Notes under the pieces: model-generated
Seen by the model: the letters and a program-made list of their open reading frames with translations, nothing else
Databases searched by the model: none
Told to the model about the DNA's origin: nothing
Part shown: positions 13,444-45,300 of the stretch, in pieces
How positions within the stretch are numbered: position 1 is the first letter of the stretch
Layout: each line of letters starts with the position of its first letter
Made by a program: the position numbers and the translations under genes
Source of the DNA: Gammaproteobacteria bacterium
Lineage (GTDB): Bacteria; Pseudomonadota; Gammaproteobacteria; Burkholderiales; Thiobacillaceae
Direction of reading: 5' to 3'
DNA length: 64,000 nucleotides
Assembly: GCA_018820765.1 (NCBI GenBank)
Contig: JAHJNN010000007.1
Location: forward strand, 1 to 64,000

Positions 13444-13498
13444 ATTATCCGGACCGGCGATGACAGCGCGTAAAAGGCGGGATGAGCCGTTCGGGCCA
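13444..13498 (-). promoter_or_regulatory. operator palindrome and -10 of the DUF2341-ExbB operon
   Basis: TGAGCC-GTTC-GGGCCA (13483-13498) is a member of the window's TGAGCC-N4-GGCTCA family. On the minus strand a GATAAT hexamer (13444-13449) lies 44 bp from the palindrome centre, about 32 bp before the ATG. Confidence 0.55.
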
Positions 13499-13575
13499 TG
13501 CGCCGTCGGCATCGCCCTGCCGAGGCCCTGTTCCGCACACACCGCGGCGGGAAGATATTTCCGCCCTGCGCAAAC

Positions 13576-13598
13576 AAAAACCCCGCCGGTCGGCGGGG
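13576..13598 (-). terminator. intrinsic terminator of the 13694 PEP-CTERM gene
   Basis: CCCCGCCG-GT-CGGCGGGG (13581-13598) is preceded on the plus strand by five A residues, giving a hairpin plus U tract for leftward transcription about 95 bp after the stop of the PEP-CTERM gene. Confidence 0.75.
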
Positions 13599-13620
13599 TT
13601 CGAGGCCTACGCTGGATATC

Positions 13621-13643
13621 CCCTCTCCCCTTGGGGGAGGGGG
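13621..13643. repeat. GC-rich intergenic palindrome
   Basis: CCCTCTCCCC and GGGGGAGGGGG form a self-complementary block. Very similar runs occur in intergenic regions of many proteobacteria. It lies beside the terminator; no coding role. Confidence 0.5.
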
Positions 13644-13693
13644 TGTCAACAGGCTGAGGATCCCGCCATCTAGCGGGGTGCCCGGGCCGCGGC

Positions 13694-15172
13694 TTACGCG
13701 CGCTGCGCGTTGCGCCGACGCGCCATGAAACCGACCAGCCCCAGACCGGCCAGCAGCATGGCATAGGTTTCCGGCTCGGGGACCGGCGCCATGTTGACGC
13801 TGTAGAGCGTGGTGGTGTTGGAGACTTCGTTGGCGATAGCCAGGTAGTGCTTGCCGTCCATCACAAAGGCTTTCATGCCCTCGGGCGCGCGGTCGCCGTC
13901 GGTCACGATCATGTCGACGAAGCTGGCATTGGCCGGGTCGGTGATGTCGTACACCGCCACCGCGCCTTTCGTCGTGCGCTCCAGGCCGATGAAGGCGAAC
14001 GTGCGGCCGTCGATTTCCACCAGCTCCACCCCTTCCGGCTCGACGCCCTTGTCGTCGCTGCGGCCGTCGTCGTAGATGCCGCGTGCGATCGCCTCGGCAT
14101 CCAACTGGTTGCCGCTGTCGAACACCAGGTTGCCGTCGGTGTCGCGGATCGAGAACGAGCGGCCGCCGAAGGTGTAGAGCTCCGTTCCGGACGTCGAATC
14201 GAGCGTGGAAATATTCAGCTGCGCCAGGTCGGCGGGAGAGCCTGCGAGACCTGAATCCTTGACCCGCGCCTTGTCGCCGTCGTCCTCGCGCGTGTCGCCT
14301 TCGTTGGCCATCACCAGATAGGTCTGGCCGCCCGCTTCATAGGCGGCCACGGCGTCGGGCTGGTAGAAACCCTTGACGTCCGCTGCACGCAGTTCGATCG
14401 TGCCGTCCTTGTGGCTGGGGTCGATTGCGTTGCCCGGCAGCGAGAAATCCTTGGTGCCGAGGCCCACCACGCTGGTGAAGGTGTTCGTCCCGAGATCGAG
14501 CACCCCCATCGCGTTGGCTTCCTGCAGCGTGACGAAAGCGTGCGTGCCGGCGGCATTCAGCGTGATGTATTCGGGTTCGAAATCCATGCCGGGGGAACGC
14601 ACGCCGCTGCCCGTGATGGGCACGCCGGCAAAACCCGCCGTCGCCGCGACCGAACGGCTGCCCATGTCGATGATGCTGACACTGCCGGCGGGATCGAAGC
14701 CGCCATAGACCGTGGGCGTCGCCTCGTTCGCCACCAGCAGCTTGCTGCCGTCCGCCGTGAAGGCCAGCATGTCTGGCAGCGCGCCGACGCTGATCTGGTT
14801 GGTGCCGCTGGCCAGTGCACGGCTGGCGGTGTCGAACAGCACGACCTGCCCATTCGCGGTACGGTCGGCCGACGACTCGAACGCCATCGCCGCCATCCCG
14901 TTGTGGATCGCCACGCTGTTGATGAAGCCGAAACCGGTGGTATCGATATGCTGAACCAGGCTTCCGGTGCCGGCATTCAGCACGTCCACCCCGACCACGC
15001 CGGCCACCCACAGGGTGTTGGTGAGCGCGTCGAACGCCGGGACTTCGGACGTGACGCCGGCGGTATGGGACGCGGTCCATTCGAACTGGAATCCGCCGAT
15101 GGGCGATGCCGCCTGGACCGCGCCGGAGGCCATCAGGCCGAGCAGCAGGGCGGGAATGGGTTTGATGCGCAT
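13694..15172 (-). CDS. choice-of-anchor I family PEP-CTERM protein
   Basis: This 492-residue exported beta-propeller-like protein has a signal peptide (MRIKPIPALLLGLMASGAVQA), repeated strands with SVAIHNGMAAMAFES, and the phytase/esterase-like GVEPEGVELVEIDGRTFAF. It ends in a PEP-CTERM sorting signal (VPEPETYAMLLAGLGLVGF, then ARRR) that an exosortase cleaves during export. The ATG at 15172 follows GGAGAC and is preferred over an earlier in-frame Met. The family is named for its variable anchors; activity is not established, though related proteins are phosphatase-like. An operator palindrome lies at 15285-15300. Confidence 0.88.
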   Translation of the reverse strand: MRIKPIPALLLGLMASGAVQAASPIGGFQFEWTASHTAGVTSEVPAFDALTNTLWVAGVVGVDVLNAGTGSLVQHIDTTGFGFINSVAIHNGMAAMAFESSADRTANGQVVLFDTASRALASGTNQISVGALPDMLAFTADGSKLLVANEATPTVYGGFDPAGSVSIIDMGSRSVAATAGFAGVPITGSGVRSPGMDFEPEYITLNAAGTHAFVTLQEANAMGVLDLGTNTFTSVVGLGTKDFSLPGNAIDPSHKDGTIELRAADVKGFYQPDAVAAYEAGGQTYLVMANEGDTREDDGDKARVKDSGLAGSPADLAQLNISTLDSTSGTELYTFGGRSFSIRDTDGNLVFDSGNQLDAEAIARGIYDDGRSDDKGVEPEGVELVEIDGRTFAFIGLERTTKGAVAVYDITDPANASFVDMIVTDGDRAPEGMKAFVMDGKHYLAIANEVSNTTTLYSVNMAPVPEPETYAMLLAGLGLVGFMARRRNAQRA

Positions 15173-15233
15173 GATGTCTCCGCTGGGAATGATTAGGGCA
15201 TAAGCCGCGCCCGCATCGCGGACACGCACCGCA

Positions 15234-15300
15234 AGCCTAGCGGGGCATCATTGAAGTAAATGCGTCACCGGAGCCGTCCAGATACGGGCCGAACGGCTCA
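15234..15300 (-). promoter_or_regulatory. operator palindrome and -10 of the 13694-15172 gene
   Basis: On the minus strand TGAGCC-GTTC-GGCCCG (15285-15300) is followed by TAGGCT (15234-15239) centred 56 bp downstream. The first three bases of the palindrome are also the TGA stop codon of the upstream exoprotein gene. Confidence 0.55.
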
Positions 15301-18300
15301 TAGGCAGCCCGGACGGCTGGTGTCGCAGTCGCCGTGTCCGATCACCTCGGCGGTGATGAAGGTGGGCTTGAAGGCCTGCTTCAGTTCTTCCGCCGCGCGC
15401 GCGGCCTCTGCCAGGTTTTGCGACAGCGCGGCCGTGGTCGACGAGACGTCGCCGCCCGCGTTGCTGGCACCCGAAGACGCCGCCGCCACCGCGCTGGTGT
15501 CCGCGACCGGCGTGCCGGTTGAACTGCCCGAGACGGAGATGTTGTCCGCTCCAAGCACCACCTGCGCGGCGATATTGAGATTCCCCGCGCGGATGCCGGC
15601 GTCGCCGGCGTTGACCGTGCCCTTGGGGGCGATGAGGTCGACGTCGCCGGCGGTGACGCCGGGCGACTCCAGCGCACCGATACCGCTTCCGGACACCGCC
15701 CCCAACAATTCAAGCGTGGTAAGTCCGGTACTGGGATCGATCTTGATAACGGGCGGGGGAACGGCGGAGGCACTCTTCTTGCCTTTGCCCGCGTCGATGT
15801 CACCTTCGCTCGACCACAAGAGAACATCTCCGCCACCCACTGTCAGGATGCGGGACTGATTGACGAGGATATCGTCGCGCGAAAAGCCTCGGATATCACC
15901 CTCTGCCGACACCACAATTCCCAACACATTATTGCCCACATTGACCAGTGCGGCGGGCGTATTGGCAAGGCCCACGATGACATCGCCCCCTGGCGCCATG
16001 AAATCGATACCGCCCCCCTGTTCCGTTTTGACGCGGCTGGCGAACAGGTTGATATCACCCTCGTAGTGTTTGAAGGTGCCATCCGCATTCTTGTCCTCGA
16101 TGCCCGGGAAGACCGTCGCCAGCGCCGCATAGCCACGGGCATAGTCGGCAGCGTAATCGCTGTCCTGATTCAACGAGTCGCGGCCCGTGATACGCAAGGC
16201 GGTGTATAGCATCTTGACCACATGCGCCTTCTGCGCATTCTCATCGATCGCATCCACAGCCAGCACAGCGGCAAGCGCATTGTCTACCTCCAGCGTATCG
16301 TCGCCCGTCAGCCAGCGCGCCAGCCAGAGCGTCGTATCATCTGGCGAACCTGCCTGCAACTGGGCAAGCACACGATCGACCGTTCCGACATAATCGATAC
16401 TCGCAGCACCTACGCCTGCAGCCAACCTCAGGTCAGCGCCGCCTGACGGCAAGGCAGCATTATCGAGATTGCCTCGGCTCACAATGCCGCCCGAAGTGCC
16501 CAAATCGACATGTTCGCCTGCCGTAACCTCCAGTCGTCCCGGGCCGCCGATACGTATCTGCGCGTTGTCGCGCCGATCGGAAGTCGTGCCGAACACCACG
16601 CTGCGTCCCGCCTCGACGTGGCTGACATCCTGCGCACCGACATGCTGGATGTGCAGCGTGACGTCCCGCACATCTCCCCCGGCCTTGAGTTCGAGTCGCT
16701 TGGGCGTATTCAGTACGGTCGTGACCAGCGCGGTATTGAGGCCACTGACGTCGCCATTCAAGGCGTATACGCGTACAGGCTTGGAGTCGCTGCCGTGCAG
16801 CGGGTTTGTTGCATGCGCGTTGGGCGTCGTTCTGGGCGTGATCGGATTGACGATGAGCTTGGGAACCGCCGTGTCGCTGGTCGAAGCCGACGCGATGATG
16901 TTGGTAGGCTTGACGGCGCCAGGTACCAGCCCTGGATCCATGTCGCTCAAGGTCAGGCTGTTGTTGAATTTCGCGTTGCCAGCGCCCAGCAACTCGATCC
17001 CGCCTGTTGCGCTGGGGTTCATCGTCAACGGCGTCGTGCTGCCCGCTTCGCCAATCTCGATATCGCCCTGGAAGCTCGTCATGGCCAGACTGGACGGCAA
17101 CAGATACTGCGGCTGATCGGAGTTCGCATTGTTCAGGCGAGCGGTGTTTTGTCCCATCGAGGTGTTGCCAGACAGGCTCTCGAGTGCAATCGAGCTCTCC
17201 GCACCATAAGTCGAGAACAGACTACGGACGGGCTGCAGAAGCGCCGGGAAGGCAATACGTAAATTCCCGGCCGACTGCGGCAGAAGCTGCGGCGAAATGG
17301 CATTGCCCAGATTGACGTCGCCAGCCGCCCTCAAACGCGCGCTCGCATCGCCCAATGCCACCAGCGGCTTGATCGTGCCGCTCGCGCCGATGCCTCCGCC
17401 CGCCTGGACAAGAATATCGCCTCGCCCTGAATAATAGGTGCCCCCGAGCACATCCGTGCCGGCTTCCACGCGCACGTCGCCGCCCCCCGTCACCACCAGG
17501 GACGACGCATTGGGCGATGTGCCGGATGTGCGGCCCTGTGTCGCTGCGCTCGCCGAAACGTCCTTTACGGTACCGCCCGCGACCAGTGCCACATCGCCGC
17601 CGCCCAGCGCGCCCACGCCCTGCTGGAACTGATCGAAACGCACCCACCACGCGGGCTGTTTGTCGAAGAAGCCCGTTGTCGAATTGATCGCACCTTGGCG
17701 ATACAGCCATTCCGAATACAACTGCGACGTGGCCTTGCCGAGAATGTCGCCTTGCGCGCGCAATGCGACATCGCCGCCATTCTGCGAGAAGACTGGGTTG
17801 AGCACCGAAGCCGGTGTAGTGAATCCGCTCTCCAGGTCAGCCACGCGGCCGGCGGTATAAATCGCTGCCTTGTCATCCTTCAATTCGATGTTGCCGCCCG
17901 CTGCAACATGAATATCGCCAGTCCCGGTACGTACCAGCTTGCCTGCCGCAACTTCGACATTCCCCTTGCCGATTGCACTGGCACGCTGGGTAGCCAGAGG
18001 ATCGGCAGCCGTCTGATCGGCACCGCCAACCAGGCGGTACGTCCAGGATTCGCCCGCCAGCAAGGTGGCAGGTGCCGGCGTGGCAGCGCAAGTCGCCGTC
18101 GTGCAAGGTGTCGCATGGCTGAAGCCGTCAGAAAGATTACTGTTGATCTTGAGACTGTCCGCCGCGCGTAGGGTAAGGACACCCACCTCGCCATTGTCGC
18201 GCAAGCCTTTCAGGTTCCAGTCGGCGCTTAACGTCAGATCGCCGGTTGAACGTACTTCGACACCAGACAGGATATGAATATCAGGCTGCTCAAGGTCGGT

Positions 18301-21300
18301 CTTGATATTGGCATGGTTGGACGCGAATGCGGCGTTGTCGGCCTTGATCGCGGTGAGGCCTAGGATGCCGCCCGCATTCGCACTGCTGGCGTTGAGCGTG
18401 GCAATGTTGTCATATATCTTGACGGCCTCGACCGACACCGAGCGCGCGCTATTCAAGCCGCTGCTTTTCAGCGTAGTAATGTTCACACCGGTTGCTGTGC
18501 GTCCGGCACGCAACAACACGGTGCCACCCTGCCCGCCTGTGCCGCCGGACACATCGATGGCGCTGCCGGATGCCAGATCGAGCTTGCCGTCGCGGGTGCC
18601 GATCTCGATGTCGCCGCCCTCCTCGTTCGCGCCACTGGACTTGGCCGTGAGCTTGGCCGTGTCCTTCACATTCACAGCGTCATTCGCGAACAGCTCGATT
18701 CGGCCGGCGTCCTTGCCCGAGGCGTCGAGTTCGCCTGCCACGTCGAGCTTGCCGCTGTCGGCGGCGATGTGGATGTTGAGTGCTTTGACTTTGTCGGTCT
18801 CGGCGATGCTCACGTCGCCGTTGCGCACGCGCAGTCTGCGCTCGCCATCGAAGCCGCCCGTGTTGAGCGCGGTGTTGAATGTCGAGAAACTTGTGACTTG
18901 GTTTCCTTCATCGTCAAATTTGTTGAGCGTTTTCACATCGATGTCAGCGCGCGCGCCGTCGCCGCGTTTGCCGTCGGTATCCGGCGTTTCCGCACCGCTG
19001 ACGCTGCCGTCGGCCAGCGTAAAGCTGCCATTCGCCGCACGCACGATCAGCGTGCCAGCGTCGCCGCCCGCGGCTGCCGACACGTCGACCTTCGCCCCCT
19101 CGTCGAAGGTCACATTGCCGGTTCCGGCCACGATTTGGCCGGAATCGCTATCGATCTTACCCGTGCTGACGAATTCCGCCGTGCCACCCCAACTGGGTTT
19201 GCTCACGTCGAAGAACTGCACGGAGCGTCCGGCCACGTCGATCGTGGCGTTCTCGCCCAGCTCGATATTGCCGGCGGTGGCCGTGAGCTTGATGCTGCCT
19301 GAGGGTAATTCGGCGTGGGAATCGAAATCAACCGACGTGCCCTGCAACGCCCACTTCGCGCCCAGCGCGGTGACGGGCGCCAATACACGGTCGGCAGAGT
19401 GCTGCGCGACGCTCAACGTGTCCGTCGAGTCGAATGCCTGATCGGCGCCGCGTTCGCCGCTGATGCGCGCGACGTTCAGCGTCACAGGTGCGCTCACGTC
19501 CAGCTTGCCGGTGCCGGAGCCTACCAGTTCATTCGCCGTGACCGTCACCGCGCCAAAGCCCTGGATCGCCTTGTCGCCGGCGCCCAGCGTGAGCGTATCG
19601 GCTTTCACCTCGAGATTGCCGGTTCCCAGCGCGCCGCCTGCGGTAAACGACGCAGCATTATTGGGGTTGGTGAGGGTGAGGTTTTGCGCATTGAGCTGTG
19701 CGGTCTGGCCTGCGTTATCCAAACCCGCCAATCCCGCGCCCTGCAAGCTCAGGTTTTGCAGCACGGGTTTGCCGGCGTCGAGCTTGCCGACGACCACATC
19801 GCCATAGAGATCGAAGGTGGAATAGCTGGTGAGCGTCAGTTCGGCCAGATCGATGGCGTTCAACTCGTCCTGTGTATAGGTGAATCCTTCGCTGCCCACT
19901 GGCGCATTGCCGAAGTTGATGCGGCTGGCGCCCACTGCCAGATTGCCCGCGACGAGCACCCTGACCACATCACCGTTCACGCTCTTTTGCTGCTCGAATT
20001 TGGCCGTTCCCTTGAATGCATTTTCCTTCGTCGCGTCGAGCGTAATCGAATCGGCGGCAATCACCGTGCTGTCTGCCGCGCCGGTCAGTGTGCCCTGGCT
20101 GCGGTCCGGGCTGCCGGTGCGCGCAAAGCTGGCGCGCGTGGATGCCGCGCGCACGAGCGCGCCGTTGCCCGCCGTTTCGTAGTGCCCGGCATCGCCCGCA
20201 GGGCCTTGCGCATCGATTGCGCTGCCCGATTCGAGTTCAAGCGTACCTTTCGCCGCCAGCATGATTTCCCCGGCCTTCAATGCGTGGCTCGCGTCGTTGG
20301 CGAGCGTCACGCTATCGGCGCCTACCGTCAGCGTCGTGGTATCGCCGCTGACGGCTCGCGTCCCGCCGATGAACAGGCTTTCCGCGCCAAAGTCATTGAG
20401 CTTGCCGGCGTCGAGCACGACGACATCCGATGCGATCCCGTCTGGCGTGCCGCTAGTAATGGCCAGTTTCAGCGCGCTGATGTCCACCTGCGCACCACGT
20501 CCACCCTCCCCGGCCGCGAAGTCGTATACCGCATCGAGCTTCAGTGCATTGGTGCCGCTACCGGTGGTAGCCGCCGAGAGCAGACCCGCATCCTGCGGCC
20601 GGTTCCGGCTGTCGGCAAAGAACTTCGATGCGTTGGTCAAGGTGAACTCAGATCTTGCCAGCACCTGTTCGCGGGTCAGCACTTCGACCCCTTGCCAGTT
20701 CGCATCTTTCGGCGCATTCACGCGGGTATCGGTCAGGTAACCCGCAGCAACGCGCACCCCGTCCTGACGGCTATAGCTTTGGCCGGGCAACAGCCGAACA
20801 TCGGCATTCAGCTTGACTGCATAGGCTCCCGGCAACAACGCATAGTGCGCAGGCAACAGGGTATATACACCATCCGGCAGGCCTGGCACGCCGGAAAGAT
20901 ATACGGCGTCGCCGGGTGCACGATCGAATACGATCTTGTTTGCGGTCGCTTCGCCTACCTTGCGCGACTGATCGTTCTGCGCATCGGCCATGGCGTAGCC
21001 GCCGGTGTAACCTGGCATGATCGCGTAGATGTTGTCGTCGGCCAGGATGTCGTGCGATCCACCCGGCCCTGTAGTGAATTCATACGCCTGAATGTCGCCG
21101 CCTCCGGAGAGATCGACCTTCGCACCGGACTGCATGTCGACTGAGGCGCCGCTCGCGCGGATAGCCTTGCCGTCGAGATCGGCAACTTGCAGTTTGTCGA
21201 CTCTCGAAGCGTCGACGTCGAATATCCACGCGCGGCCATTCTCCACTTTGCCGAAGGGGGTCAGGCTGCCCGGTGTCGCAGCCACCGAGGTCAGGCTGCC

Positions 21301-25720: not shown

Positions 25721-25776
25721 ACCTTAACGCTGGGGTACGTCTTGCCTGTGTCATCCGGAATGAGCCGATCGGCTCA
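25721..25776 (-). promoter_or_regulatory. operator palindrome and -10 between tpsB and tpsA
   Basis: TGAGCC-GATC-GGCTCA (25761-25776) is a perfect 16-bp palindrome, 2 bp past the tpsB stop and 99 bp before tpsA. TAAGGT (25721-25726, minus strand) lies 45 bp from its centre. This implies that tpsA has its own promoter in addition to any read-through from tpsB. Confidence 0.6.
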
Positions 25777-25777
25777 T

Positions 25778-30160: not shown

Positions 30161-30226
30161 ACTTTAGGGAACGTGGATGACACCCGATGGGGAGTAGGGG
30201 CAGGAAAAACTGAGCCGGATGGCTCA
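30161..30226 (-). promoter_or_regulatory. operator palindrome and -10 of the 29146-30036 gene
   Basis: TGAGCC-GGAT-GGCTCA (30211-30226) has perfect 6-bp arms. On the minus strand TAAAGT (30161-30166) is centred 55 bp from it, leaving a leader of about 115 nt. Confidence 0.6.
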
Positions 30227-30252
30227 TCCGTCGCACGGCGGCGGAAAGCAGA

Positions 30253-30388: not shown

Positions 30389-30389
30389 A

Positions 30390-31169
30390 CTATTCCGCAT
30401 CCCCGCGCACCCCCTGTGCGCGCAAAAACCCCAGCGCGATGGCCTTGGCGACGGCCTGGCCGCGGGTGCGGACGATGAGCTTTTTCATCGCGTGACGCAG
30501 ATGGTTTTTGACGGTGAGCATCGACAGGCCGAGGATGGCGGCGATTTCGTCGTTGGTCTTGCCGTCGCGCACCCAGGTCAGCACTTCGACTTCGCGCGCG
30601 GTGACGAGTCCGCTTGGGCGCTTGGTGTGGGTCTGGGCGCGCGCCTCGTTGGCGAGCACGCGCGCCAGGGTAGCGAGCAGGTGCGGCAGCAGGATGTCGA
30701 GATACATTTCAAGGCGGCCGTCGAACGGCGCGCGCACCCGCGAGAAGCTGGCATAGCCCTTGATCTGTCCGTCAATCCAGCCCATGCCATGGAAGGCGAC
30801 GTTCTTCAGTTCGAGATCGGTGAGCCGGGCGTTCCAGCCGCCCGGCTCCTCGGGCAGCGCCGCAATCAGGCGTGGCACGCCGGCAATCTGCCATTCCTGC
30901 GCCAGATGATTGACCAGGCCGCTGCCCGGATGGATGACGCGCTGGTAATGATCGTCCTTGAAGTAGCGGCAGGCGGTGAAGCGCTCGTGCAGCAGATAGC
31001 CGCTTTCATCCGCCACCCCGCACAGCAGGATTTCGTGGGGAATGAGCGACTGCAGCGGGCCATGCACCCAGCTGAAAAAATGGTGACGCAGCGAAACCCG
31101 GCGCGAGGCGAGCAGAATGCGCGCCAGATGGCCGCATTCTTCGTCGGTCAGTTCGTTTGCGTTATGCAT
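30390..31169 (-). CDS. epsA: EpsA-type LuxR-family regulator of PEP-CTERM/EPS genes
   Basis: This 259-residue protein has an N-terminal effector-like domain (about 1-185) and a C-terminal LuxR/NarL helix-turn-helix (about 193-250; LVTAREVEVLTWVRDGKTND then IAAILGLSMLTVKNHL). This is the layout of EpsA, the transcription regulator found beside exosortase/PEP-CTERM and exopolysaccharide loci. The ATG at 31169 is used; the 27 codons upstream run into repeat element B. No phosphoacceptor receiver domain is present. It is flanked on both sides by CAAGTT repeat elements. It is my candidate for binding the TGAGCC palindromes (inference). Confidence 0.85.
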   Translation of the reverse strand: MHNANELTDEECGHLARILLASRRVSLRHHFFSWVHGPLQSLIPHEILLCGVADESGYLLHERFTACRYFKDDHYQRVIHPGSGLVNHLAQEWQIAGVPRLIAALPEEPGGWNARLTDLELKNVAFHGMGWIDGQIKGYASFSRVRAPFDGRLEMYLDILLPHLLATLARVLANEARAQTHTKRPSGLVTAREVEVLTWVRDGKTNDEIAAILGLSMLTVKNHLRHAMKKLIVRTRGQAVAKAIALGFLRAQGVRGDAE

Positions 31170-31223
31170 GAAGCCCCCTGTGGGCAGCGAGCATAGGCGT
31201 GTGCGATGACAGTGAAATGACAG

Positions 31224-31350
31224 ATTCAAGTTGCAAGATGCACGTTGCAAGATTCAAGTTGCAAGTTTCAAGGTGTTCGTGGCCGGGCGGGAGGCCGCTC
31301 GATCCGCCTGAACCTTGCAACTTGAATCTTGAAGCCCGCGAAGCGGGCGC
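31224..31350. repeat. CAAGTT heptad inverted element, copy B
   Basis: The left arm has five or six heptads (TTCAAGTTGCAAG repeated), then GTGTTCGTGG as in copy A. The right arm is CTTGCAACTTGAATCTTGAA with a GC-rich end AGCCCGCGAAGCGGGCGC. It lies between epsA and the divergent EAL/GGDEF gene. Confidence 0.75.
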
Positions 31351-34823: not shown

Positions 34824-35030
34824 GACGTTCTCCCAAATAAAGGCGGCAAGCAGAACCATCCAAAGCGCGTGAACGACTGGCAACCGGCTGTCTGCGCATA
34901 CGACGCTTCTCCCAAAGCCGCGCAGATCCTGGCATTTCCGACCCCGCCTCGCGACGGGTGTGGCTTTTCAGCACGCAGGCAGTTTCGCGCACCGATATTG
35001 CAGCAGGTGGTGTTCGCAACGCGGCGGGCA

Positions 35031-35066
35031 TGGCACGTTCGGGCCAGGGACGGGACATTCGGGCCA
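35031..35066. promoter_or_regulatory. two degenerate operator-like palindromes
   Basis: TGGCAC-GTTC-GGGCCA (35031-35046) and CGGGAC-ATTC-GGGCCA (35051-35066) are spaced 20 bp centre to centre, two helical turns, and resemble the half-sites found upstream of other exported genes here. They could serve either the leftward PEP-CTERM gene or the rightward small gene at 35144. I see nothing else in 34824-35143. Confidence 0.4.
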
Positions 35067-37452: not shown

Positions 37453-37613
37453 GGATTGCTCCTTTGCTTGTCATGAGATCGGGATCGGCCGCCGGACACC
37501 GTCGTCCGCGACATCACGCCCATCTCCAATCGAAACTTCAAAAACAGCTCAGCCGCAAGCTGCCTGTCCAGGCGCAAAACGCCCATGCAAACAAAACTCA
37601 GCGCACGCCGGAG

Positions 37614-37814: not shown

Positions 37815-37924
37815 AGCCTGCCCCGCCCTGCTGCTTTATAACCACTTGTTATTCGCCTTGCGGCGAGATTCTTCCTGCCCGTATTCCGAGATGGCCGAAA
37901 CCAGCCCCAGGCGCGCGTCGAAAC

Positions 37925-38137
37925 GAAATCTGCAATAGGCAATGCCGCGCAGCACCGTCTCGGCGTGCGCATGGGATATCGTTGAAAAAAATCCAACGAT
38001 CACAGGACATGACAAACCCTGGGAGGGCGTTTGTCCGGACATCGAAACAACCGATGCCCACTGCTTTTCACGCGCACTGCTTGTTGCTTTATTGTGTACA
38101 GCTATTGTTTTGTCGCGGACCTTCGAATCTGTTGTCC
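37925..38137 (-). repeat. tandem intergenic unit 2 (candidate structured RNA)
   Basis: This is a diverged copy of unit 1, about 310 bp to its right. The hairpin equivalent to that of unit 1 is ATCGTTG..CAACGAT: the stem is kept while its bases differ, which points to an RNA structure. It lies just downstream of the 38162-38227 promoter/operator. Confidence 0.5.
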
Positions 38138-38161
38138 GAATGGCTTCCTCGACTGTGGTGA

Positions 38162-38227
38162 ATCTTAACGGGCCAATATTTCAGGGCTTCGTGTTGAAGT
38201 GCGGCCTGCGATGAGCCTATCGGCTCA
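38162..38227 (-). promoter_or_regulatory. operator palindrome and -10 for a leftward transcript
   Basis: TGAGCC-TATC-GGCTCA (38212-38227) has TAAGAT (38162-38167, minus strand) centred exactly 55 bp away, the same geometry as at 15.2, 30.2, 39.9 and 45.3 kb. The transcript would run through the tandem units toward the 37452 gene. Confidence 0.55.
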
Positions 38228-38258
38228 TGTAACGGTGAGCCTGCGATCAGGCAAGGCG
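38202..38258. repeat. 57-bp perfect direct repeat, copy 1
   Basis: Identical over 57 bp to 40162-40218. It contains the operator palindrome and ends GATCAGGCAAGGCG. Confidence 0.85.
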
Positions 38259-38295
38259 GCTCGGCCGAGCCGGATACTGCCCGGGGCCTGGCGCA

Positions 38296-38351: not shown

Positions 38352-39776
38352 TTACTTCACCGACCTGCGACGTGCAGCGGCAAAGCCGACCAGGCCAAGA
38401 CCAGCCAGCATCATGGCGTAAGTTTCAGCTTCGGGAACGGGAACGGCAGTGATCATCATGGTGCGATCCACACCGCCGGTGGGATGCTGGATGTTCACAT
38501 AAGCCTTGTTCGGGTCGGTCGGGTCGAAGAACAGACCGGAGAACTCGGAGCCCGGGGTGCCATTGGACGCCCAACGAGCGACGCCTTCGCCGGCATCGAG
38601 CAGATCGCCGTCGTGGTTGATGTCCTTGGCGAACCAGATGTCGTCGTCGACGCCGCCATTGCGGTCTTCGATGATGTAGACGTTGCCTTCGCTATCGATG
38701 GCGATGTTGTCAGGGTTGGTGAAGGCGGCGCTGCCCACAGCCAGACCCGTTGCCAGATCGATGGTGTTCGCGTTGGCGAACACGCTCATCTCGCCGGTCG
38801 TCAGGTTCGTCAGGTAGACCTCATTGGTTCCGGTGGTGGCCACGAAAATCGCCTCATCCCCGTTGGCCAGGTTCGCGATGTCCATGTCTTCCGGACGATT
38901 GTAGGCAGTGCTGGCAATCGCGTCCTGACCCTGGCGACCATCGACGGCGCCGGTAGAAGTCAGATTGACCCCTGCAAGCGCAGCGCCATTGGCGTCGGTA
39001 ATCGCAGCCCAGGTATAAGCACCCGTAGCGTTGCTGTTAGCGCCTGCACCCACCTTCAGTGCGAAGGTCTGACCTGCGGCGAAGTAGTCATCGCCGTTGG
39101 TAGCGTTGGCATTGGCCGAGGTGTACTTGTAAATGCCGCCACCGTTCAATTCGTCGATGAAATAAAGATTCTTGTTGCTGTCGAAAACCAGGCCTTCGTG
39201 CGAAACGCGCGGAATGATGCTGCGCTCGACGAAGTTGATGGAACCGACCGCAGCCGTCGGATTGGTGATCTCGAACAAACGGCCTTTGGTGTTGCTGGCG
39301 CTGGCGGCAGTGGAGCTGAAGCTTTCTTCAGCCGTCAGGTAGCTGCCCCACGGGGTCCAACGCGAAGCGTCACCGGCAGTGAAGCCAAGTGTGCCTGGTG
39401 CGACGATGGTCTTGGTGGCGAAGCCATTCAGCAAGTCGATGCGCTGCACGCCCGCTGCGGGATTGGTTGCATCGAACTGCTCGAAAGGCATGAACAGGTA
39501 ACGATTAGCGTCCGGGCCAGAGGTGTTCATGGCGATCATGTCCCAGTTGCCGGGGTTGGCTTCGCCCAGAGCGAGCTGGTTGGTGCGGTCAGCGATTGAT
39601 ACCTGGCTGAAGTTGGGGCTGGACAGCGTGATGGGCGTTGCCGGAGTTGCCGTCGCGCCGGCGGAGGCAGCGAGCGGGGTGAAGATGGCGAAATTGGTGC
39701 TGGCTGCCTGAGCACCACCGGCGATCGTGACGAGCACGGCAGACAGCAGTACGTTGAGTGGCTTGCGTGCAAACAT
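38352..39776 (-). CDS. PhoX/DUF839-like PEP-CTERM protein
   Basis: This 474-residue exported protein has a signal peptide (MFARKPLNVLLSAVLVTIAG to GGAQA). The body matches the PhoX/DUF839 beta-propeller family: SRWTPWGSYLTAEES, VSHEGLVFDSNKNLYFIDE, RPEDMDI and NPDNIAIDSEGNVYIIEDRN. PhoX enzymes are Ca/Fe-dependent alkaline phosphatases; whether this protein keeps the cofactor ligands cannot be judged here. It ends with VPEAETYAMMLAGLGLVGF then AARRR. GGGAGG precedes the ATG at 39776. The operator and -10 lie 70-134 bp upstream and the terminator follows at 38296. Confidence 0.85.
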   Translation of the reverse strand: MFARKPLNVLLSAVLVTIAGGAQAASTNFAIFTPLAASAGATATPATPITLSSPNFSQVSIADRTNQLALGEANPGNWDMIAMNTSGPDANRYLFMPFEQFDATNPAAGVQRIDLLNGFATKTIVAPGTLGFTAGDASRWTPWGSYLTAEESFSSTAASASNTKGRLFEITNPTAAVGSINFVERSIIPRVSHEGLVFDSNKNLYFIDELNGGGIYKYTSANANATNGDDYFAAGQTFALKVGAGANSNATGAYTWAAITDANGAALAGVNLTSTGAVDGRQGQDAIASTAYNRPEDMDIANLANGDEAIFVATTGTNEVYLTNLTTGEMSVFANANTIDLATGLAVGSAAFTNPDNIAIDSEGNVYIIEDRNGGVDDDIWFAKDINHDGDLLDAGEGVARWASNGTPGSEFSGLFFDPTDPNKAYVNIQHPTGGVDRTMMITAVPVPEAETYAMMLAGLGLVGFAAARRRSVK

Positions 39777-39844: not shown

Positions 39845-39910
39845 AATATATTCATCGCCTGTTACATCTCGTCCGAGTCGAGCCAGGGCGAAAATGAGCC
39901 AATTGGAGCC
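39845..39910 (-). promoter_or_regulatory. operator palindrome and -10 of the PhoX-like gene
   Basis: TGAGCC-AATT-GGAGCC (39895-39910, one arm imperfect) has TATATT (39845-39850, minus strand) centred 55 bp away. The leader then contains an inverted repeat around 39808-39852 (AATATTCGTGATT and its complement). Confidence 0.55.
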
Positions 39911-39952
39911 TGGACCACGTGCACATGGCTGGCCGATGCCCAGTTTTGAGTC

Positions 39953-40014
39953 GTCACACCGGCGGAGGCCTGTGTCCAGTTGAATCGCTGGATACCGGCC
40001 TCCGCCGGCATGAC
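39953..40014. repeat. REP-like hairpin repeat
   Basis: GTCACACCGGCGGAGGCC..CCAG and CTGGATACCGGCCTCCGCC..GAC form a long imperfect stem with an 8-nt loop. CTGGATxCCGGCxTxxGCCGGxATGAC-type repeats are common between proteobacterial genes. Confidence 0.65.
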
Positions 40015-40050
40015 GAATGATGACTGCGACTTGAATCCTGCTTTTCGAAA

Positions 40051-40170
40051 CACACCGGCGCGCGGCCGGCGACCCTGCTCACCGCGGGAACAAATTAGCC
40101 TTCACGATATGCGGTTCGACGCGGAACACGTTGGGGATCACGCCGGCGGCCCTGCGCGCGTCGGCCTGCG
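40051..40170 (-). pseudogene. internally deleted fragment of the metallophosphatase gene
   Basis: 40051-40134 matches 44147-44230 (3' end of the metallophosphatase, encoding VFRVEPHIVKANLFPR). 40137-40170 matches 44509-44542 from inside the same gene, so 278 bp are missing between the two blocks. The fragment joins directly onto the 57-bp repeat copy. It is non-functional and lies between the PhoX-like gene and the subtilase. Confidence 0.8.
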
Positions 40171-40218
40171 ATGAGCCTATCGGCTCATGTAACGGTGAGC
40201 CTGCGATCAGGCAAGGCG
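40162..40218. repeat. 57-bp perfect direct repeat, copy 2
   Basis: Same 57 bp as 38202-38258, including the operator palindrome (40172-40187). There is no -10 at the expected 55-bp distance, because the copy ends in the gene fragment. Its right end supplies the stop codon and last codons of the subtilase. Confidence 0.85.
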
Positions 40219-42591
40219 TCGCCGCATCGCCGCGAGCAGGCCTGCGCCGAGCAGCAGCAGCGCCCACGGTGGCATCGGCACATCGCCGTCGTTACCGCCC
40301 TCGCTGATCGCCGCCACGCTGAAGGTCTGCATCGCCGAGGGCGCGGCGCTGTACTGGCTGTCGCCCGGCTGGGTGGCTTCGAGCGTGCAGAGCCCCGCCG
40401 TCAATAGCGTGACGGTATTGCTGCTGGCGCCGCACACCGCGGGCGTCAGCGAAGCGATGCCCACCGGCAATCCGGAACTGGCGGTGCCGGTCACGCCGAA
40501 CGGCGCGGCCCCCAGCGTTTGCCCGGCAACGGCGGCAAAACTGATGGTTTGCGCGAGCAGGGTGACGTTGAAGCTCCGCGTGACTGTGGGGGCGGCGGCA
40601 TAGCCGGCGTTGCCGGCCTGGTTTGCCGCGATCGTGCAGATGCCGCCGGCGATCGAACTGACCACGTCGCCCGCAACCGTGCATACCGTTTGCGTCTGGC
40701 TGCTGAACGTCACCGCCAAACCCGAACTGGCCGTGGCGCTCAGGCTGAAGGCCGAGTTCACCGGCATGTCGCCGATGGGATTGAACGCAATGCTCTGCGC
40801 CTGCTGCAGCGTCCAGGCGAGCTGGACCGCGCCGCTCGCTGCCGACTTGCCGTCGACCGCGATGCGGTAGGTCGTCCCCGCCGTGGCCGCGAAGCTCAGG
40901 CCGCTGGCGCTGCCCGCCGAGCCGTCGTTGTCGTTCGAGGCGGCCTCGGCCAGCACCGCAACGCCGCTGCCGGTATACACCGCCAGCACGGTATCGAAGC
41001 CGCTGCCGTGCGTATCGAAGCTGGCCGTGCCGGATGCCGCCGGCGTCCACTGCCACCACACCGATTTGCCGCCGCTGGTTGCCGCGTGAGCGGGTTCGCC
41101 CGCCTCCAGCGTCGCATTCAGGTTCCAGCCCGCGGCGATGCCGCTGGTGCCATCCAGCACCACGGCCTGGGCGAATGCATCGTTGAGCGGCGCCCCCTGG
41201 GCGGCGAGCAGATCGACGCGCGGCTTGACGATGCCGTTGCGCGCATCCGTGACCGGTTTTCCGCTCGCGGTGAGGCGGCTCAATCGGCCAGCGGCGGTAT
41301 CGCCCGGGAACGCCTGCGCCAGCACCGCGACCGCGCCGGTGACCACGGGCGCCGACAGCGAGGTGCCCGCGACGGTGGCACCGGTCACCGTGGTCAGCGC
41401 GCCAGGCGCGAGCAGCGTCAGAAAGCTGGCGCTATTGGAAAAGCACGTCACCTTGTCGGCTGCCGTCACGCTGTCGGTGCAATCCGGCTCCGGACCGGTC
41501 CAGGTGAGCCCGCCCACGTTGGCGTCGTAGACCGCGCCGACCGACACCGCTTCCGGCGTGCAGGCCGGGTTGGCGATGCCGTCGGAAAAGCCGTCGTTGC
41601 CGCTGGACACGACGCTCAGCATGCCGGCATTGCGGGCGTCGATGATCGGTTGCCGGTAGGGGTTGCTGAAGTTGCTGCTGCACGCGGCGGTGTATTTGAC
41701 CCCGTTGCCCAGGCTCATGTTGATGGCCACGATGTTGTAGAGCGCGCGGTTGGCGATGGCCCAGTCGATGCCGCCGATGACGTCGACGCTGCTGGCCGAG
41801 TTGCTGTCGAACACGTCGATCGCGACGATGCCCGCGCCGGGCGCGACCGCCGTTGCGGTGCCCGCCACCCAGGTGCCATGGCCGTGGGCATCGCGGGCAT
41901 TGTCCTCGGGCGCGGTATCGAGCGCCACCACCACGCGGCAGCCTGCGGGCACGCCGGGTGCGGTGCAGGATCCGAATTCGCTGCGGGTGTAATCGACGCC
42001 GGTATCGAGCACCGCCACCGTGGCGCCGCTGCCGGTGCGGCCCATGATCTGATTGACCAGGGGCTGGCCGATCAGCGGCAGCGTTTCGACCAGATGCGGA
42101 TACAGCTTGGTGTCCTCGAACACCGCCGTCACCTCCCCGCGCGCCAGCAGCCGCAGCAGCGCCCCGGCATCGCGGAAGCGCAGGAAAGCCATGGGGATGT
42201 GCCGGTAGTCCCGGCGCAGTTCCGTATCCAGAGCAGGCAATGCCGACAGTGCCCGCGCCTTGAGCGCGCGATAGCGTTCGGCGCGCAGCGCGGTCGCCGC
42301 CGCATCCTCCGCCCTGAGCGCGCGCTGGCTCAGATGGCGCTCGAGCTCGGTATCGATCGCGGCATCCCCGAACAGCACGAGCAATTCGCGCACCTCGCCC
42401 GCCTGCACCTTGCGCCAGGTCTCCGGCGCGATCTTGTCCGCGACCGCAGCCGGAACCGCGAGCGCTTCGACACCCGCCTGCGCCTGCCGGTATGGCATGA
42501 GCGTTATCGATGCGAGCGCCAGCAGGAAGACGAAACGGAACAGGCCTGCAGCCAGGCCCGTCCGCTTATCCAAAAAAGTGCGCGCATCCAT
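40207..42591 (-). CDS. S8 subtilisin-like protease with XrtH-type C-terminal tail
   Basis: This 794-residue exported protease has a signal sequence (about 13-40) and a propeptide-like helical region to about 170. The catalytic residues are D196 (AVLDTGVD), H238 (GHGTWVAG) and S411 (GTSLSAP), with the oxyanion Asn in SSGNDG. After the protease come a pre-peptidase C-like beta domain (about 475-585) and two similar Ig-like repeats each with a Cys pair (about 590-760). The tail VPMPPWALLLLGAGLLAAMRRR is a short P-P-W motif, hydrophobic helix and Arg cluster. It is not a PEP-CTERM signal but resembles the IPTLxxW class sorted by exosortase H, which is encoded next door. The last codons overlap the 57-bp repeat. 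Confidence 0.88.
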   Translation of the reverse strand: MDARTFLDKRTGLAAGLFRFVFLLALASITLMPYRQAQAGVEALAVPAAVADKIAPETWRKVQAGEVRELLVLFGDAAIDTELERHLSQRALRAEDAAATALRAERYRALKARALSALPALDTELRRDYRHIPMAFLRFRDAGALLRLLARGEVTAVFEDTKLYPHLVETLPLIGQPLVNQIMGRTGSGATVAVLDTGVDYTRSEFGSCTAPGVPAGCRVVVALDTAPEDNARDAHGHGTWVAGTATAVAPGAGIVAIDVFDSNSASSVDVIGGIDWAIANRALYNIVAINMSLGNGVKYTAACSSNFSNPYRQPIIDARNAGMLSVVSSGNDGFSDGIANPACTPEAVSVGAVYDANVGGLTWTGPEPDCTDSVTAADKVTCFSNSASFLTLLAPGALTTVTGATVAGTSLSAPVVTGAVAVLAQAFPGDTAAGRLSRLTASGKPVTDARNGIVKPRVDLLAAQGAPLNDAFAQAVVLDGTSGIAAGWNLNATLEAGEPAHAATSGGKSVWWQWTPAASGTASFDTHGSGFDTVLAVYTGSGVAVLAEAASNDNDGSAGSASGLSFAATAGTTYRIAVDGKSAASGAVQLAWTLQQAQSIAFNPIGDMPVNSAFSLSATASSGLAVTFSSQTQTVCTVAGDVVSSIAGGICTIAANQAGNAGYAAAPTVTRSFNVTLLAQTISFAAVAGQTLGAAPFGVTGTASSGLPVGIASLTPAVCGASSNTVTLLTAGLCTLEATQPGDSQYSAAPSAMQTFSVAAISEGGNDGDVPMPPWALLLLGAGLLAAMRRRLA

Positions 42592-42790: not shown

Positions 42791-43396
42791 TTAGCTACGG
42801 CGGGATTCGAACGACTTGTGCAGCAATGCTGCCGCGAAAGCTAGCGCGAGGCTCAACGCAAAACGCCCGCCCCCGTCCATCACCCGCGTCCAGTCGACCC
42901 GCAGCGAGGCCGCGTCCGCTGCGGGATCGAGCGAGTAGCTCAGCAAGTCGCCGATCGAGCTGGCCAGCACCAGCGGGACATCGAGTGCTTCTAGCACGAG
43001 CAGGCAGGGCAGGCTCAGCAGCAGCCTCAGCAGCCGCGCACGCCAGTGCGGGAGCGGCCAGACCAGTGCCGCCGCCACCAGCACGACCGGATGGATGAGC
43101 GCGACATACAGGGGCGTCGAGGCATGCACCGTCAGACCGGCAGGCAGGATCTGTCCCCCCACCAGCATCGCGCGTTCGGCGATCACCTGGGTATCGAACA
43201 CATATTCATGGCCGAGTGCGATGCCCAGGTAAACCACCCCGAAATCCGGCAGTACCCAATCCAGAATGCGCTCGTACAGGGGTAGCCAGAAATGGGCGTA
43301 ATGCCAGCCCCACGCCCATGCCGCCCAGAGCAGAAAAGGCAGCCAGATCAGCAGGCGCAGGACGATGCCAGGCACGATGCTTCGCCCGTCATTCAT
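42791..43396 (-). CDS. exosortase H-associated membrane protein
   Basis: This 201-residue protein has four or five hydrophobic segments (about 8-28, 48-62, 90-115, 122-150, 178-195) and no catalytic motif. Its ATG overlaps the xrtH stop (ATGA), the usual placement of the accessory membrane protein that accompanies exosortase H. Its biochemical role is unknown; the co-occurrence suggests it assists XrtH in the inner membrane. Confidence 0.8.
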   Translation of the reverse strand: MNDGRSIVPGIVLRLLIWLPFLLWAAWAWGWHYAHFWLPLYERILDWVLPDFGVVYLGIALGHEYVFDTQVIAERAMLVGGQILPAGLTVHASTPLYVALIHPVVLVAAALVWPLPHWRARLLRLLLSLPCLLVLEALDVPLVLASSIGDLLSYSLDPAADAASLRVDWTRVMDGGGRFALSLALAFAAALLHKSFESRRS

Positions 43397-43944
43397 GGCT
43401 GGCGTGGCGCCTCGCGTCCCAGCAGAATCAGAAAGAACACCAGACAGGCCGCCACCAGCAGCACCGGCAATACCGTGCCGTGCAGCACCCCGAACCAGGC
43501 GCGGTTATTCAGGAAGGCATGCCAGAGCACCACGATGCGCATCTGATTGAGCGCGAACACCAGCAGCGTTCCGGCAATCAGGCCAGGCAGGCGCGTGCGC
43601 CAGGCGAAGGGATAGGCGATGAAAGCCGCCGCCAGCAGGAACAGGGTTTCCATCCCTTCGCAGCCGTTGAGGATATTGAGCCGCCCCGCCGCGGCCACCA
43701 GGCGGTGCCCTTCGGCATGCACCTGAAATGCCGGCCACAACCGGTCGATGATCCATGCAGCCGGGCGGACGGTGAGTTCATCGATGAACACCCGCTCCAC
43801 CGCAGAGTCCCGCCCCATCTCCCAGCCGTATTGCAGGGCGAAAAAAACGGCCAGAAAAATCAGCAGCACACGCCAGGGCTGTCGTCGCCGCGCTTGCGCG
43901 CGCGACTCGGCTTCGATGATTTCGGAATGGCTTGGAGGATGCAT
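43393..43944 (-). CDS. xrtH: exosortase H (XrtH)
   Basis: This 183-residue integral-membrane cysteine transpeptidase is short, as is typical of XrtH. The exosortase triad is visible: C95 in NGCEGME, R136 in LNQMRIV and H155 in VLHGTVLP. Membrane segments flank each motif. I use the ATG at 43944; the 35 upstream codons are Arg-rich and unlike an exosortase N-terminus. It recognises IPTLxxW-like C-terminal signals; the neighbouring subtilase is its obvious substrate candidate. The PEP-CTERM proteins of the window would need a different exosortase encoded elsewhere. Confidence 0.88.
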   Translation of the reverse strand: MHPPSHSEIIEAESRAQARRRQPWRVLLIFLAVFFALQYGWEMGRDSAVERVFIDELTVRPAAWIIDRLWPAFQVHAEGHRLVAAAGRLNILNGCEGMETLFLLAAAFIAYPFAWRTRLPGLIAGTLLVFALNQMRIVVLWHAFLNNRAWFGVLHGTVLPVLLVAACLVFFLILLGREAPRQP

Positions 43945-44069
43945 GCAGGCAATACTAGCGCGCCAATGTTGTCGCCTTGTGTTGCGGTAGCGCCGGTTCC
44001 AGCGGCGGCCGCGTAATCGCCTCAACGCCGGCAGGGCTCGAATGAGCACTGTCCGTACTGGAATCCGCC

Positions 44070-44150
44070 AAAAAACGGGCGGCCCGAAGGCCGCCCGTTT
44101 CGCTTAATGCTTACCGCTTGCTGCTTACTTCACCACTTGCGACGTGCACG
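44070..44150 (-). terminator. terminator duplicated with a PEP-CTERM gene end
   Basis: 44072-44150 repeats 38297-38375 (terminator stem plus the last codons of a PEP-CTERM gene) with few changes. Here it ends the metallophosphatase transcript. The hairpin is at 44076-44098 with an A run on its left, giving a U tract for leftward RNA. Confidence 0.8.
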
Positions 44151-44174
44151 CCGGCGCGCGGCCGGCGGCTCCGC

Positions 44175-45203
44175 TCACCGCGGGAACAAATTGGCCTTCA
44201 CGATATGCGGTTCGACGCGGAACACGTTGGAGTCGCGCGGATTGACGAACACTTCGACCCAATGGACGTTCTGCGCGCCGAAGTTTTCCACGCGCGTGAC
44301 GTTCTCCAGCATCTGGCGGCCCGACGGCTGGACCGGAGCGGCGAGCGGCTTGTCGACGCGGAAGTAATGGCTGTCGCCATGCGCCAGCAACACCGGCTTG
44401 CCGAACGCGATAGCCTGCTGCGTGATGCGCTCGAGCACCTTGTTGAAGCCTTGGCGCTCTGGGTCGGTAGACGGCAGGTCGAACCTGGGGTTGGCCTGCA
44501 TGGCGATCATCACGCCGGCGGCTCTGCGCGCGTCGGCCTGCGCGAACACCTCGTCGACCCACGCCAGCGCAGCTGCTTCGCGCGCCTGGACTTCGGCCAG
44601 GCGGTCGGGACGCGGCGCATCGTAGCTGTCGGCCGGGTCGATCTGGTTCCACGGGTCGAGGCCGTTGTTGCTGCCGACCACGTGCAGCGTCGCCATCATG
44701 GCGCCGTTGAAGCTCCACATCATGTTCTCGACGTAGTCCTCGAAGCCTGCCATCGCTGCCTGGGTGCGCACCGGGAAGCGATGCTGGCCGCCGGTCATGC
44801 CGGGAACCGGGTAGAAGATCTCACGGAATTTGGCCAGGCGCTCGGTCGGCAGATAGTTGCCGTTGTTGGTGCGGTGGCAGTCCGTCCAGTCGTTGTCGCC
44901 CGGCGTCACGATCACGCCGTCGCGCAGGGTCTGGAACTGGTCGAAGCGCTTGTGCAGCAACGCGTCGTCGCAACGCTCGCTGCCGGCCTTGACGTCGCCG
45001 GTATGCACAACGAAACGCACATGCGGCGCCGCATTGATGTTCGAAATCACCTGATCGAATTTCGTCTCGACCGACGTGCCGTAGGGCACGTCGCCGATCA
45101 GCGCAAACGAGGCCGAGCCATGGCGCCAGCCGTCCGCCGCGGCATGCGTGCCCAACGTCATCAGCACCGCTGCAGCCAGCATGCCCAGGGTATGTTTCTT
45201 CAT
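44175..45203 (-). CDS. exported metallophosphoesterase family protein
   Basis: This 342-residue protein has a signal peptide (MKKHTLGMLAAAVLMTLGTH to AAAD). The calcineurin-like motifs are FALIGDVPYG, HTGDVKAGSE, TPGDNDWTDC and, near the C-terminus, LLAHGDSHYF, giving the expected D/H/N metal ligands. It is a probable periplasmic or secreted phosphomonoesterase or diesterase. There is no sorting tail. The 3' end is partly duplicated at 40051-40170. An operator palindrome lies 82 bp upstream. Confidence 0.87.
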   Translation of the reverse strand: MKKHTLGMLAAAVLMTLGTHAAADGWRHGSASFALIGDVPYGTSVETKFDQVISNINAAPHVRFVVHTGDVKAGSERCDDALLHKRFDQFQTLRDGVIVTPGDNDWTDCHRTNNGNYLPTERLAKFREIFYPVPGMTGGQHRFPVRTQAAMAGFEDYVENMMWSFNGAMMATLHVVGSNNGLDPWNQIDPADSYDAPRPDRLAEVQAREAAALAWVDEVFAQADARRAAGVMIAMQANPRFDLPSTDPERQGFNKVLERITQQAIAFGKPVLLAHGDSHYFRVDKPLAAPVQPSGRQMLENVTRVENFGAQNVHWVEVFVNPRDSNVFRVEPHIVKANLFPR

Positions 45204-45234
45204 TTCAGCGCTCCGGATAATCAAAGGAACGCCG

Positions 45235-45300
45235 AGCTTACCGACTGAACATGATAGGCCGATGTCGTGGTCGGCCTCCGGGGCTGACCCGTTCGGCTTA
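45235..45300 (-). promoter_or_regulatory. operator palindrome and -10 of the metallophosphatase gene
   Basis: TGACCC-GTTC-GGCTTA (45285-45300) is a slightly degenerate family member. TAAGCT (45235-45240, minus strand) is centred 55 bp from it. Confidence 0.5.

Follow-up and report, generated by a model that had tools for sequence, protein, structure and literature searches.

Why do unrelated genes on one stretch of a Thiobacillaceae genome carry the same palindrome at the same distance from their promoters, and which protein might bind it? The stretch comprises 64,000 nucleotides (assembly GCA_018820765.1, contig JAHJNN010000007.1, positions 1 to 64,000; the window hereafter), and its leftward PEP-CTERM, two-partner-secretion (TPS), ExbB and PhoX-family genes lie behind copies of TGAGCC-N4-GGCTCA. 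We followed this palindrome through the window, the rest of the genome and the genomes of related bacteria. At the level of sequence, the operator-like palindrome, its fixed geometry, a downstream element resembling one half of a Pho box, and both co-occurrence and adjacency with epsA, the gene for a LuxR-type regulator, are established. The palindrome is probably an operator of EpsA, which would help to activate sigma-70 promoters carrying half a Pho box, perhaps as a joint gate of EpsA and PhoB; that EpsA and PhoB bind, that the effect is activation and not repression, AND logic and a ligand are what we infer.

Palindromes of the window and their promoters

A scan of the window found exact copies of TGAGCC-N4-GGCTCA at 25761, 30211, 38212 and 40172, copies with two mismatches at 13483, 15285 and 45285, and one with three mismatches at 39895, in agreement with the positions named in a first-pass annotation of this DNA. 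The fixed spacing proposed there also held, the distance from palindrome centre to -10 centre being 55 bp at 30.2, 38.2, 39.9 and 45.3 kb and 56 bp at 15.3 kb, with a class one helical turn shorter (44-45 bp) at 13.5 and 25.8 kb. The sites are listed below as 18-mers, together with the Pho-like second element treated further on (half-Pho), the -10 and the gene behind them.

7468..7485, minus strand: additional operator-like site, not in the earlier list; weak second element AGGTCAT (7435-7441) and -10-like CAGAAT (7419-7424); downstream gene doubtful
13482..13499, minus strand: candidate EpsA-type operator, short-spacing class; half-Pho CTGTCAT (13460-13466) and -10 GATAAT (13444-13449); target, DUF2341-MotA/ExbB gene 11745-13412
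15284..15301, minus strand: candidate operator; half-Pho-like CTTCAAT (15250-15256) and -10 TAGGCT (15234-15239); target, choice-of-anchor I PEP-CTERM gene 13694-15172
25760..25777, minus strand: perfect palindrome of the short-spacing class; second element (25737-25743) and -10 TAAGGT (25721-25726) both weak; target, TPS exoprotein gene 15298-25662 (3454 aa)
30210..30227, minus strand: candidate operator directly downstream of epsA; half-Pho GTGTCAT (30177-30183) and -10 TAAAGT (30161-30166); target, PEP-CTERM gene 29146-30036
30390..31250, minus strand: epsA, LuxR-type regulator (TIGR03020), proposed operator-binding protein
35030..35047, minus strand: weaker candidate operator; half-Pho-like CTGCAAT (34997-35003), with GAAACT and no TANNNT at the -10 place; target, PEP-CTERM-like gene 34299-34823
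38211..38228, minus strand: candidate operator; half-Pho CTGAAAT (38178-38184) and -10 TAAGAT (38162-38167); presumed target, after some 700 nt devoid of any convincing gene, PEP-CTERM gene 36748-37452
39894..39911, minus strand: degenerate operator, 3 mismatches; half-Pho ATGTAAC (39861-39867) and -10 TATATT (39845-39850); target, PhoX-family PEP-CTERM gene 38352-39776
40171..40188, strand unassigned: repeat of the 38211 palindrome, carried by a 71-nt duplication
45284..45301, minus strand: candidate operator; half-Pho CTATCAT (45251-45257) and -10 TAAGCT (45235-45240); target, putative exported protein gene 44175-45203

When up to three mismatches were allowed, matches to the hexamer pair in the window numbered 35 versus 40.6 expected, so the loose palindrome alone is no evidence, and its enrichment in the window, not being significant, was dropped. 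Across the whole genome (3,439,345 bases) the exact form occurs four times, all within a 14.4-kb stretch of the window, with no match to a reversed-pattern control; the extended form ATGAGCC-N4-GGCTCAT, at up to three mismatches, occurs at 78 places compared to 31 for the control. The site was also described more broadly as the 18-bp operator ATRRNCCGWWCGGNYYAT, derived from related sites in other genomes (L108, L109, L114, L115, L215, L221), and as a matrix of 18 bp derived from 32 sites outside Thiobacillus, a set collected with a pattern framed after the window sites had been seen and including some probable chance sites (e.g. L135). This matrix gave nine matches of at least 10 bits in the window (7468, 13482, 15284, 25760, 35030, 35519, 38211, 40171 and 45284), versus 0-2 in each of six Markov-simulated windows; the match at 35519 was absent from the earlier list of sites. 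The palindrome at 30210 reached only 7.4 bits, and 39894 is absent among the matches listed: it escapes the palindrome matrix, yet its half-Pho and -10 are good. Ranked by combined matrices for palindrome and second element (non-Thiobacillus training, fixed offsets), the top eight sites were 45284, 13482, 7468, 38211, 25760, 15284, 35030 and 30210, with totals of 29.0 to 18.6 compared to at most 15.2 in six simulated windows, and for all eight the leftward direction was best. The second element contributed 1.4 bits at 7468 and -0.6 bits at 25760.

The promoter at 38211 would reach PEP-CTERM gene 36748-37452 through a long leader (37450-38160), in which a segment occurs twice, its copies having diverged and lying about 319 bp from each other (59 nt at 81%, 37 nt at 84%). 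Its palindrome belongs to a 71-nt direct duplication (92%; 38202-38272 and 40162-40232, 1960 bp apart), each copy of which has the palindrome; good promoter elements are found only in the 38.2-kb copy, the promoter part at 40172 is poor, and the palindrome at 40171 is probably inert. Between the two palindromes lies an imperfect inverted repeat (39941-40026; 39-nt arms, 79% complementary, 8-nt spacer). Behind the single operator at 13482 is an apparent operon (8932-13412) of the DUF2341-MotA/ExbB fusion, ExbD, TonB and Porin_5. The PEP-CTERM-like target of 35030 scored 19.6 bits in one search (cut-off 20.7) and 23.1 in another. For the gene following 45285, the former label of metallophosphatase is unconfirmed, because 44175-45203 had no Pfam match at E ≤ 0.001.

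That the palindrome precedes most exported-protein operons, as had been claimed, is true of the window cluster but not of the genome. Within the window, PEP-CTERM gene 33263-34282 has no palindrome of its own. Outside it, three of the 14 PEP-CTERM matches have a palindrome of at least 10 bits within ~1.5 kb (11.6, 11.8 and 15.5, the last inside a long repeat) and 11 have none. Two further sites of the genome have a fitting second element, C17:10534, which precedes a putative exported protein gene with a GTG start, and C3:65832. On contig C16 of genome G000 (L281), identical operator-like 18-mers at 214 and 1629, part of a longer near-identical repeat, flank a PEP-CTERM C-terminus and are probably not operators.

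Linkage of the palindrome to epsA

The first-pass annotation had named EpsA, at 30390-31169, as a candidate binder; the LuxR-type gene is there, although its open reading frame extends over 30390-31250. The protein scored 281.4 bits against TIGR03020 (cut-off 170) and carries a GerE (LuxR) helix-turn-helix (PF00196, 3.8e-16). Its AlphaFold model (18 sequences, pLDDT 79.5) matched full-length QscR, RhlR, CviR, SdiA and TraR in Foldseek (E down to 1.4e-10, about 1e-10 for QscR and RhlR) and the ligand domain of CepR2 with a TMt of up to 0.64. Because of these full-length matches, EpsA is, on its predicted model, built like a quorum-sensing receptor with an autoinducer-domain-like fold. Dimers of the LuxR type recognise dyads about 18 bp long; the tra box, for which no paper giving the string was found, is presumably of this size and partly like the EpsA-type operator.

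Co-occurrence was scored in the genome and 35 relatives (36 Thiobacillus genomes), a match to TIGR03020 above cut-off counting as EpsA-positive. The exact palindrome was found in 19/36 genomes (reversed pattern, 3/36) and EpsA in 15/36. All 15 EpsA-positive genomes had the palindrome, compared to 4/21 EpsA-negative ones (Fisher test, p = 7e-7), namely G019, G022, G026 and G031; a fragment of EpsA is present in G022 where a contig ends. Adjacency was equally regular, with an exact palindrome downstream of epsA, within ~230 bp of the matched end, in 14/14 Thiobacillus loci with flank; the fifteenth locus (L073) is cut by a contig end and has no palindrome in the available part. Thiobacillus genomes, G031 included, also encode an EpsA-like paralogue that is divergent and scores under the family cut-off (L075-L081), and whose recognition helix reads TVRNQ or TIRNQ versus TVKNH in EpsA.

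The association was maintained at the level of the order. Among 399 sampled genomes, 62 of them EpsA-positive at E ≤ 1e-50, the exact broad 18-mer occurred in 28, corresponding to 20/62 EpsA-positive versus 8/337 EpsA-negative genomes (p = 4e-12), or 17/59 versus 8/337 (p = 4e-10) without the EpsA-positive genomes that had framed the pattern (G000, G541, G591). The reversed pattern, counted by eye, occurred in 20/399 genomes, 2/62 and 18/337 respectively (p = 0.75). Of the eight EpsA-negative genomes with the 18-mer, two (G345 and G401) do have a gene for an EpsA-like protein within the examined stretch. Eight of 35 non-Thiobacillus epsA loci had a site (≤1 mismatch, up to 1.5 kb on each side; control 0), two of them (G080, G228) outside the order, and a Thiobacillus-only matrix reached at least 11 bits at 11/35 (control 1); these counts exclude L180 (G652), which is a Thiobacillus, and L095 was dropped for lack of a clean frame.

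EpsA fits TIGR03020, a family named XrtB/PEP-CTERM-associated, above its cut-off; the exosortase-like gene of the window (43393-44049), in contrast, resembles XrtM below the cut-off (69.5 bits; cut-off 125) and had no match to XrtB, which was not searched genome-wide. Between the exosortase region and the glycosyltransferase genes, 46062-48724 holds a DUF5615/PIN-like gene and a ParE toxin/antitoxin pair.

A second element shared with pstS promoters

Read column by column without shifts, the sequence past the palindrome had little in common among sites (every later position ≤0.30 bits), and a second element emerges only when 1-bp and one-turn shifts are permitted. An unsupervised search of the DNA downstream of 51 representative sites, among them those of the window, found CTGTCAT-N10-TANNNT with a log-likelihood of 164 (best of 40 starts) compared to 80-86 in eight shuffles (best of 15 starts). 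Among the representatives scoring above 5 (n = 32), this motif lay 25-27 bp after the 18-mer in 23 and at 14-15 bp, one helical turn closer, in four. Both the motif finding and the 18-bp matrix were fed by 103 sites, 63 oriented by an exported-looking gene, 8 ambiguous and 32 with none; at least one orientation (L300) is probably wrong, because its PhoX gene is on the other side.

The excerpts available of three papers place Pho boxes 10 bp upstream of a TAN3T -10 (PMC1906773), give the E. coli Pho motif as CTGTCAT in 11-nt units (PMC4415409) and give the D. vulgaris Pho box as (c/t)GT(n)AC (PMC3333781). The pstS promoter of the genome itself reads TGAAAT-N5-TGTAAT-N10-TAGTAT. Of 25 pstS loci, two cut by contig ends were excluded, and many of the remaining 23 are orthologs within Thiobacillus; in 19/23 of their upstream regions a matrix built from non-Thiobacillus palindrome promoters exceeded the 95th background percentile (10.8), and in 20/23 the register was canonical (other register: L317, L326, L328). 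Conversely, a half-Pho plus -10 model built from pstS promoters only (15 distinct strings) matched, at 6 bits or more, a half-site 10 bp upstream of a TAN3T -10 in 36/76 site clusters, the offset being 25-26 in 25 of them and 14-15 in four; when positions were drawn at random (20 draws), 3-9/76 matched at any offset and 0-1 at 25-27. That the second element is a -35 we rejected on account of its 10-bp distance to the -10 and its identical position in pstS promoters. A sigma-54 promoter was likewise rejected: -24(GG)/-12(GC) motifs with up to two mismatches, searched in the window only, showed no excess (34 observed versus 42 expected). The genome encodes a PhoB ortholog (TIGR02154, 364 bits; cut-off 296), the one above the PhoB cut-off among eight PhoB-like regulators that score. 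The shared site and geometry on which the earlier proposal of an activator had been based are confirmed but incomplete, since this PhoB-like half-site box 10 bp upstream of the -10 is shared as well.

The genes behind sites elsewhere were of the kinds seen in the window. Nine downstream proteins, hand-picked and partly for resembling known kinds, were compared with Pfam, and comprised four ShlB/FhaC-type TPS transporters (L290, L292 and L288 in other families, L098 at a Thiobacillus-type locus), two DUF2341-ExbB proteins (L048, L052; Thiobacillus), two PhoX phosphatases in other families (L300 and L287; 581 and 563 bits) and one weak, mixed case (L289). Two further downstream proteins were a TPS exoprotein (L057) and a PPIC-type protein (L286), and PEP-CTERM-like tails lay behind sites in many loci. 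A gene with a signal-peptide-like start (ATG plus ribosome-binding site, 35-360 bp, either side) accompanied 23/59 sites (random mean 5.3, maximum 10) and sorting-signal tails 11/59 (random mean 1.1, maximum 4), the random-position control being lenient because its positions include coding DNA.

EpsA and PhoB at one promoter: a proposed mechanism and its alternatives

In the mechanism that we propose, an EpsA dimer would occupy the palindrome at about -65, or one helical turn closer at about -54, upstream of sigma-70 promoters in which a single PhoB half-site (CTGTMAT) 10 bp upstream of the -10 replaces the -35. The partner of the pstS-type half-site pair is absent, EpsA most likely supplying the missing stability or RNA-polymerase contact, and expression would be expected only when the EpsA signal and phosphate starvation, through PhoB, act together. 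The one-turn shift between the promoter classes argues for contact on one helix face. A factor bound at about -65 or one turn closer, with EpsA as candidate, is well supported by co-occurrence, by the adjacency of epsA and by conservation across families; the first suggestion, of an activator near -55/-65, had missed the second box. The stricter proposal of a composite promoter class, in which EpsA takes the place of one PhoB protomer and the activation complex is formed jointly by an EpsA dimer and one PhoB half-site, is quite possible, and we advance it tentatively.

Several observations weigh against the proposed mechanism. Below 6 bits for the Pho half-site plus -10 are 40/76 site clusters, some of which are chance 18-mers; site 25760 has a poor second element, and L098, where a palindrome adjoins a Thiobacillus-type epsA, is also without half-Pho and -10. 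The upstream Pho half averaged -7.9 bits at the sites versus -8.7 at random positions, the pstS regions, on which the model was trained, averaging +8.7; two direct repeats with an 11-bp period are not found at palindrome promoters, and because the upstream half is no better than random 7-mers, theirs is not a canonical Pho box. The exact 18-mer is missing from 42/62 EpsA-positive genomes of the order sample, a count that includes the Thiobacillus G652, which has a TGAGCC palindrome beside epsA and no match to the broad form. Over 20 distant EpsA loci together the TGAGCC form was not enriched (8 versus 6 in the control), for which reason a universal EpsA operator was rejected, and a search for other recurring palindromes near these 20 genes gave nothing convincing. 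In the EpsA tree, eight site-less rows (families f26, f197, f12, f22 and f3; sites in 0/8 on the examined stretches) are set apart by a branch whose support, 90/91, is below the tool's star and comes with a long-branch warning; on its other side, 28/42 rows have sites and 14 have none on the examined stretches. Genome G359 has one EpsA in the site-less clade and a second near two operators (L288). Lastly, the TM-scores of EpsA to full-length LuxR proteins are low (~0.3-0.5, rmsd mostly 10-16 Å), probably due to domain arrangement.

Part of this evidence would suit a different use of the second box, with EpsA on the palindrome and CTGTMAT serving another OmpR/PhoB-family regulator or a promoter element unrelated to phosphate. 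The eight PhoB-like regulators that score, one of them above the PhoB cut-off, the 40 clusters without a good box and the presence of a single half-site only are all in its favour; however, the pstS promoters of these genomes have a matching box at a matching 10-bp distance, and two operator-bearing genes in other families encode PhoX phosphatases, and we consider this explanation unlikely. Slightly less likely still is that EpsA acts as a repressor or anti-activator blocking PhoB-driven promoters. Its position relative to the PhoB half-site fits either sign, and QscR, the best structural match, is called a repressor in its entry title, but a helper is plausible because the promoters are without a second Pho half. 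Helically phased sites that lie upstream of the polymerase, at about -65/-54, are moreover typical of activators, which weighs against repression. We doubt more strongly that another regulator, co-inherited with epsA, binds the palindrome: co-occurrence cannot tell neighbours apart and most EpsA-positive genomes of the order lack the exact site, yet epsA itself adjoins the site in every Thiobacillus locus with flank and in other families, two of these loci outside the order, and the predicted fold of EpsA is LuxR-like, a type of protein that binds dyads of this size.

The control site published for PEP-CTERM genes is a sigma-54/PrsR site, and its authors expected further regulators and motifs (Haft 2006, PMC1569441, in the parts available); neither 'EpsA' nor 'palindrom' occurs in the main text of that paper. 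An RpoN-dependent pepA has also been mapped (PMC9850573, excerpt). As far as the available text of the former goes, the two cases are alike in target gene class, in having a shared cis site upstream of PEP-CTERM genes and in a regulator tied to it by phylogenetic profile. They differ in that the PrsK/PrsR system combines sigma-54 -24/-12 elements with an NtrC-type PrsR, whereas here a sigma-70-type -10 is combined with a LuxR-type EpsA and a half-Pho box; with no -24/-12 excess in the window, a sigma-54/PrsR enhancer site is a very improbable explanation of the palindrome. We give just as little credence to a repeat or hairpin (terminator or REP element) that is no operator. Some palindromes do lie at the 3' end of the preceding gene, and 38212/40172 are part of the 71-nt duplication, but across families the half-sites vary while symmetry and downstream geometry are kept.

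The architecture that we favour, with EpsA on the palindrome of a half-Pho promoter, resembles two further known systems in part. Like Pho box promoters, it has a 7-mer of the CTGTCAT type that precedes a TAN3T -10 by 10 bp, as in pstS of the same genomes, and PhoX among its targets; unlike them, it has the downstream half only, and the upstream palindrome would participate instead. With QscR, RhlR, CviR, SdiA and TraR, EpsA shares the GerE DNA-binding domain and, in its predicted model, the autoinducer-domain-like fold, but it differs from these quorum-sensing regulators by its link to PEP-CTERM clusters and its proposed use together with a Pho half-site. An EpsA operator was found described nowhere, and neither TIGR03020 nor a 'PEP-CTERM box' was mentioned, in the literature searched, a negative limited to open-licence papers.

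If the stricter, composite-promoter proposal is correct, the PEP-CTERM/TPS surface coat would be assembled under an AND gate that requires both phosphate starvation and a ligand of EpsA, and this gate would operate in several of the order's families and in at least one beyond the order. The analysis proposes targets for the EpsA family and puts forward a regulator by name, along with an operator and a promoter layout, all ready for testing. It would link an exported surface-protein system, PhoX-type phosphatases included, to phosphate control.

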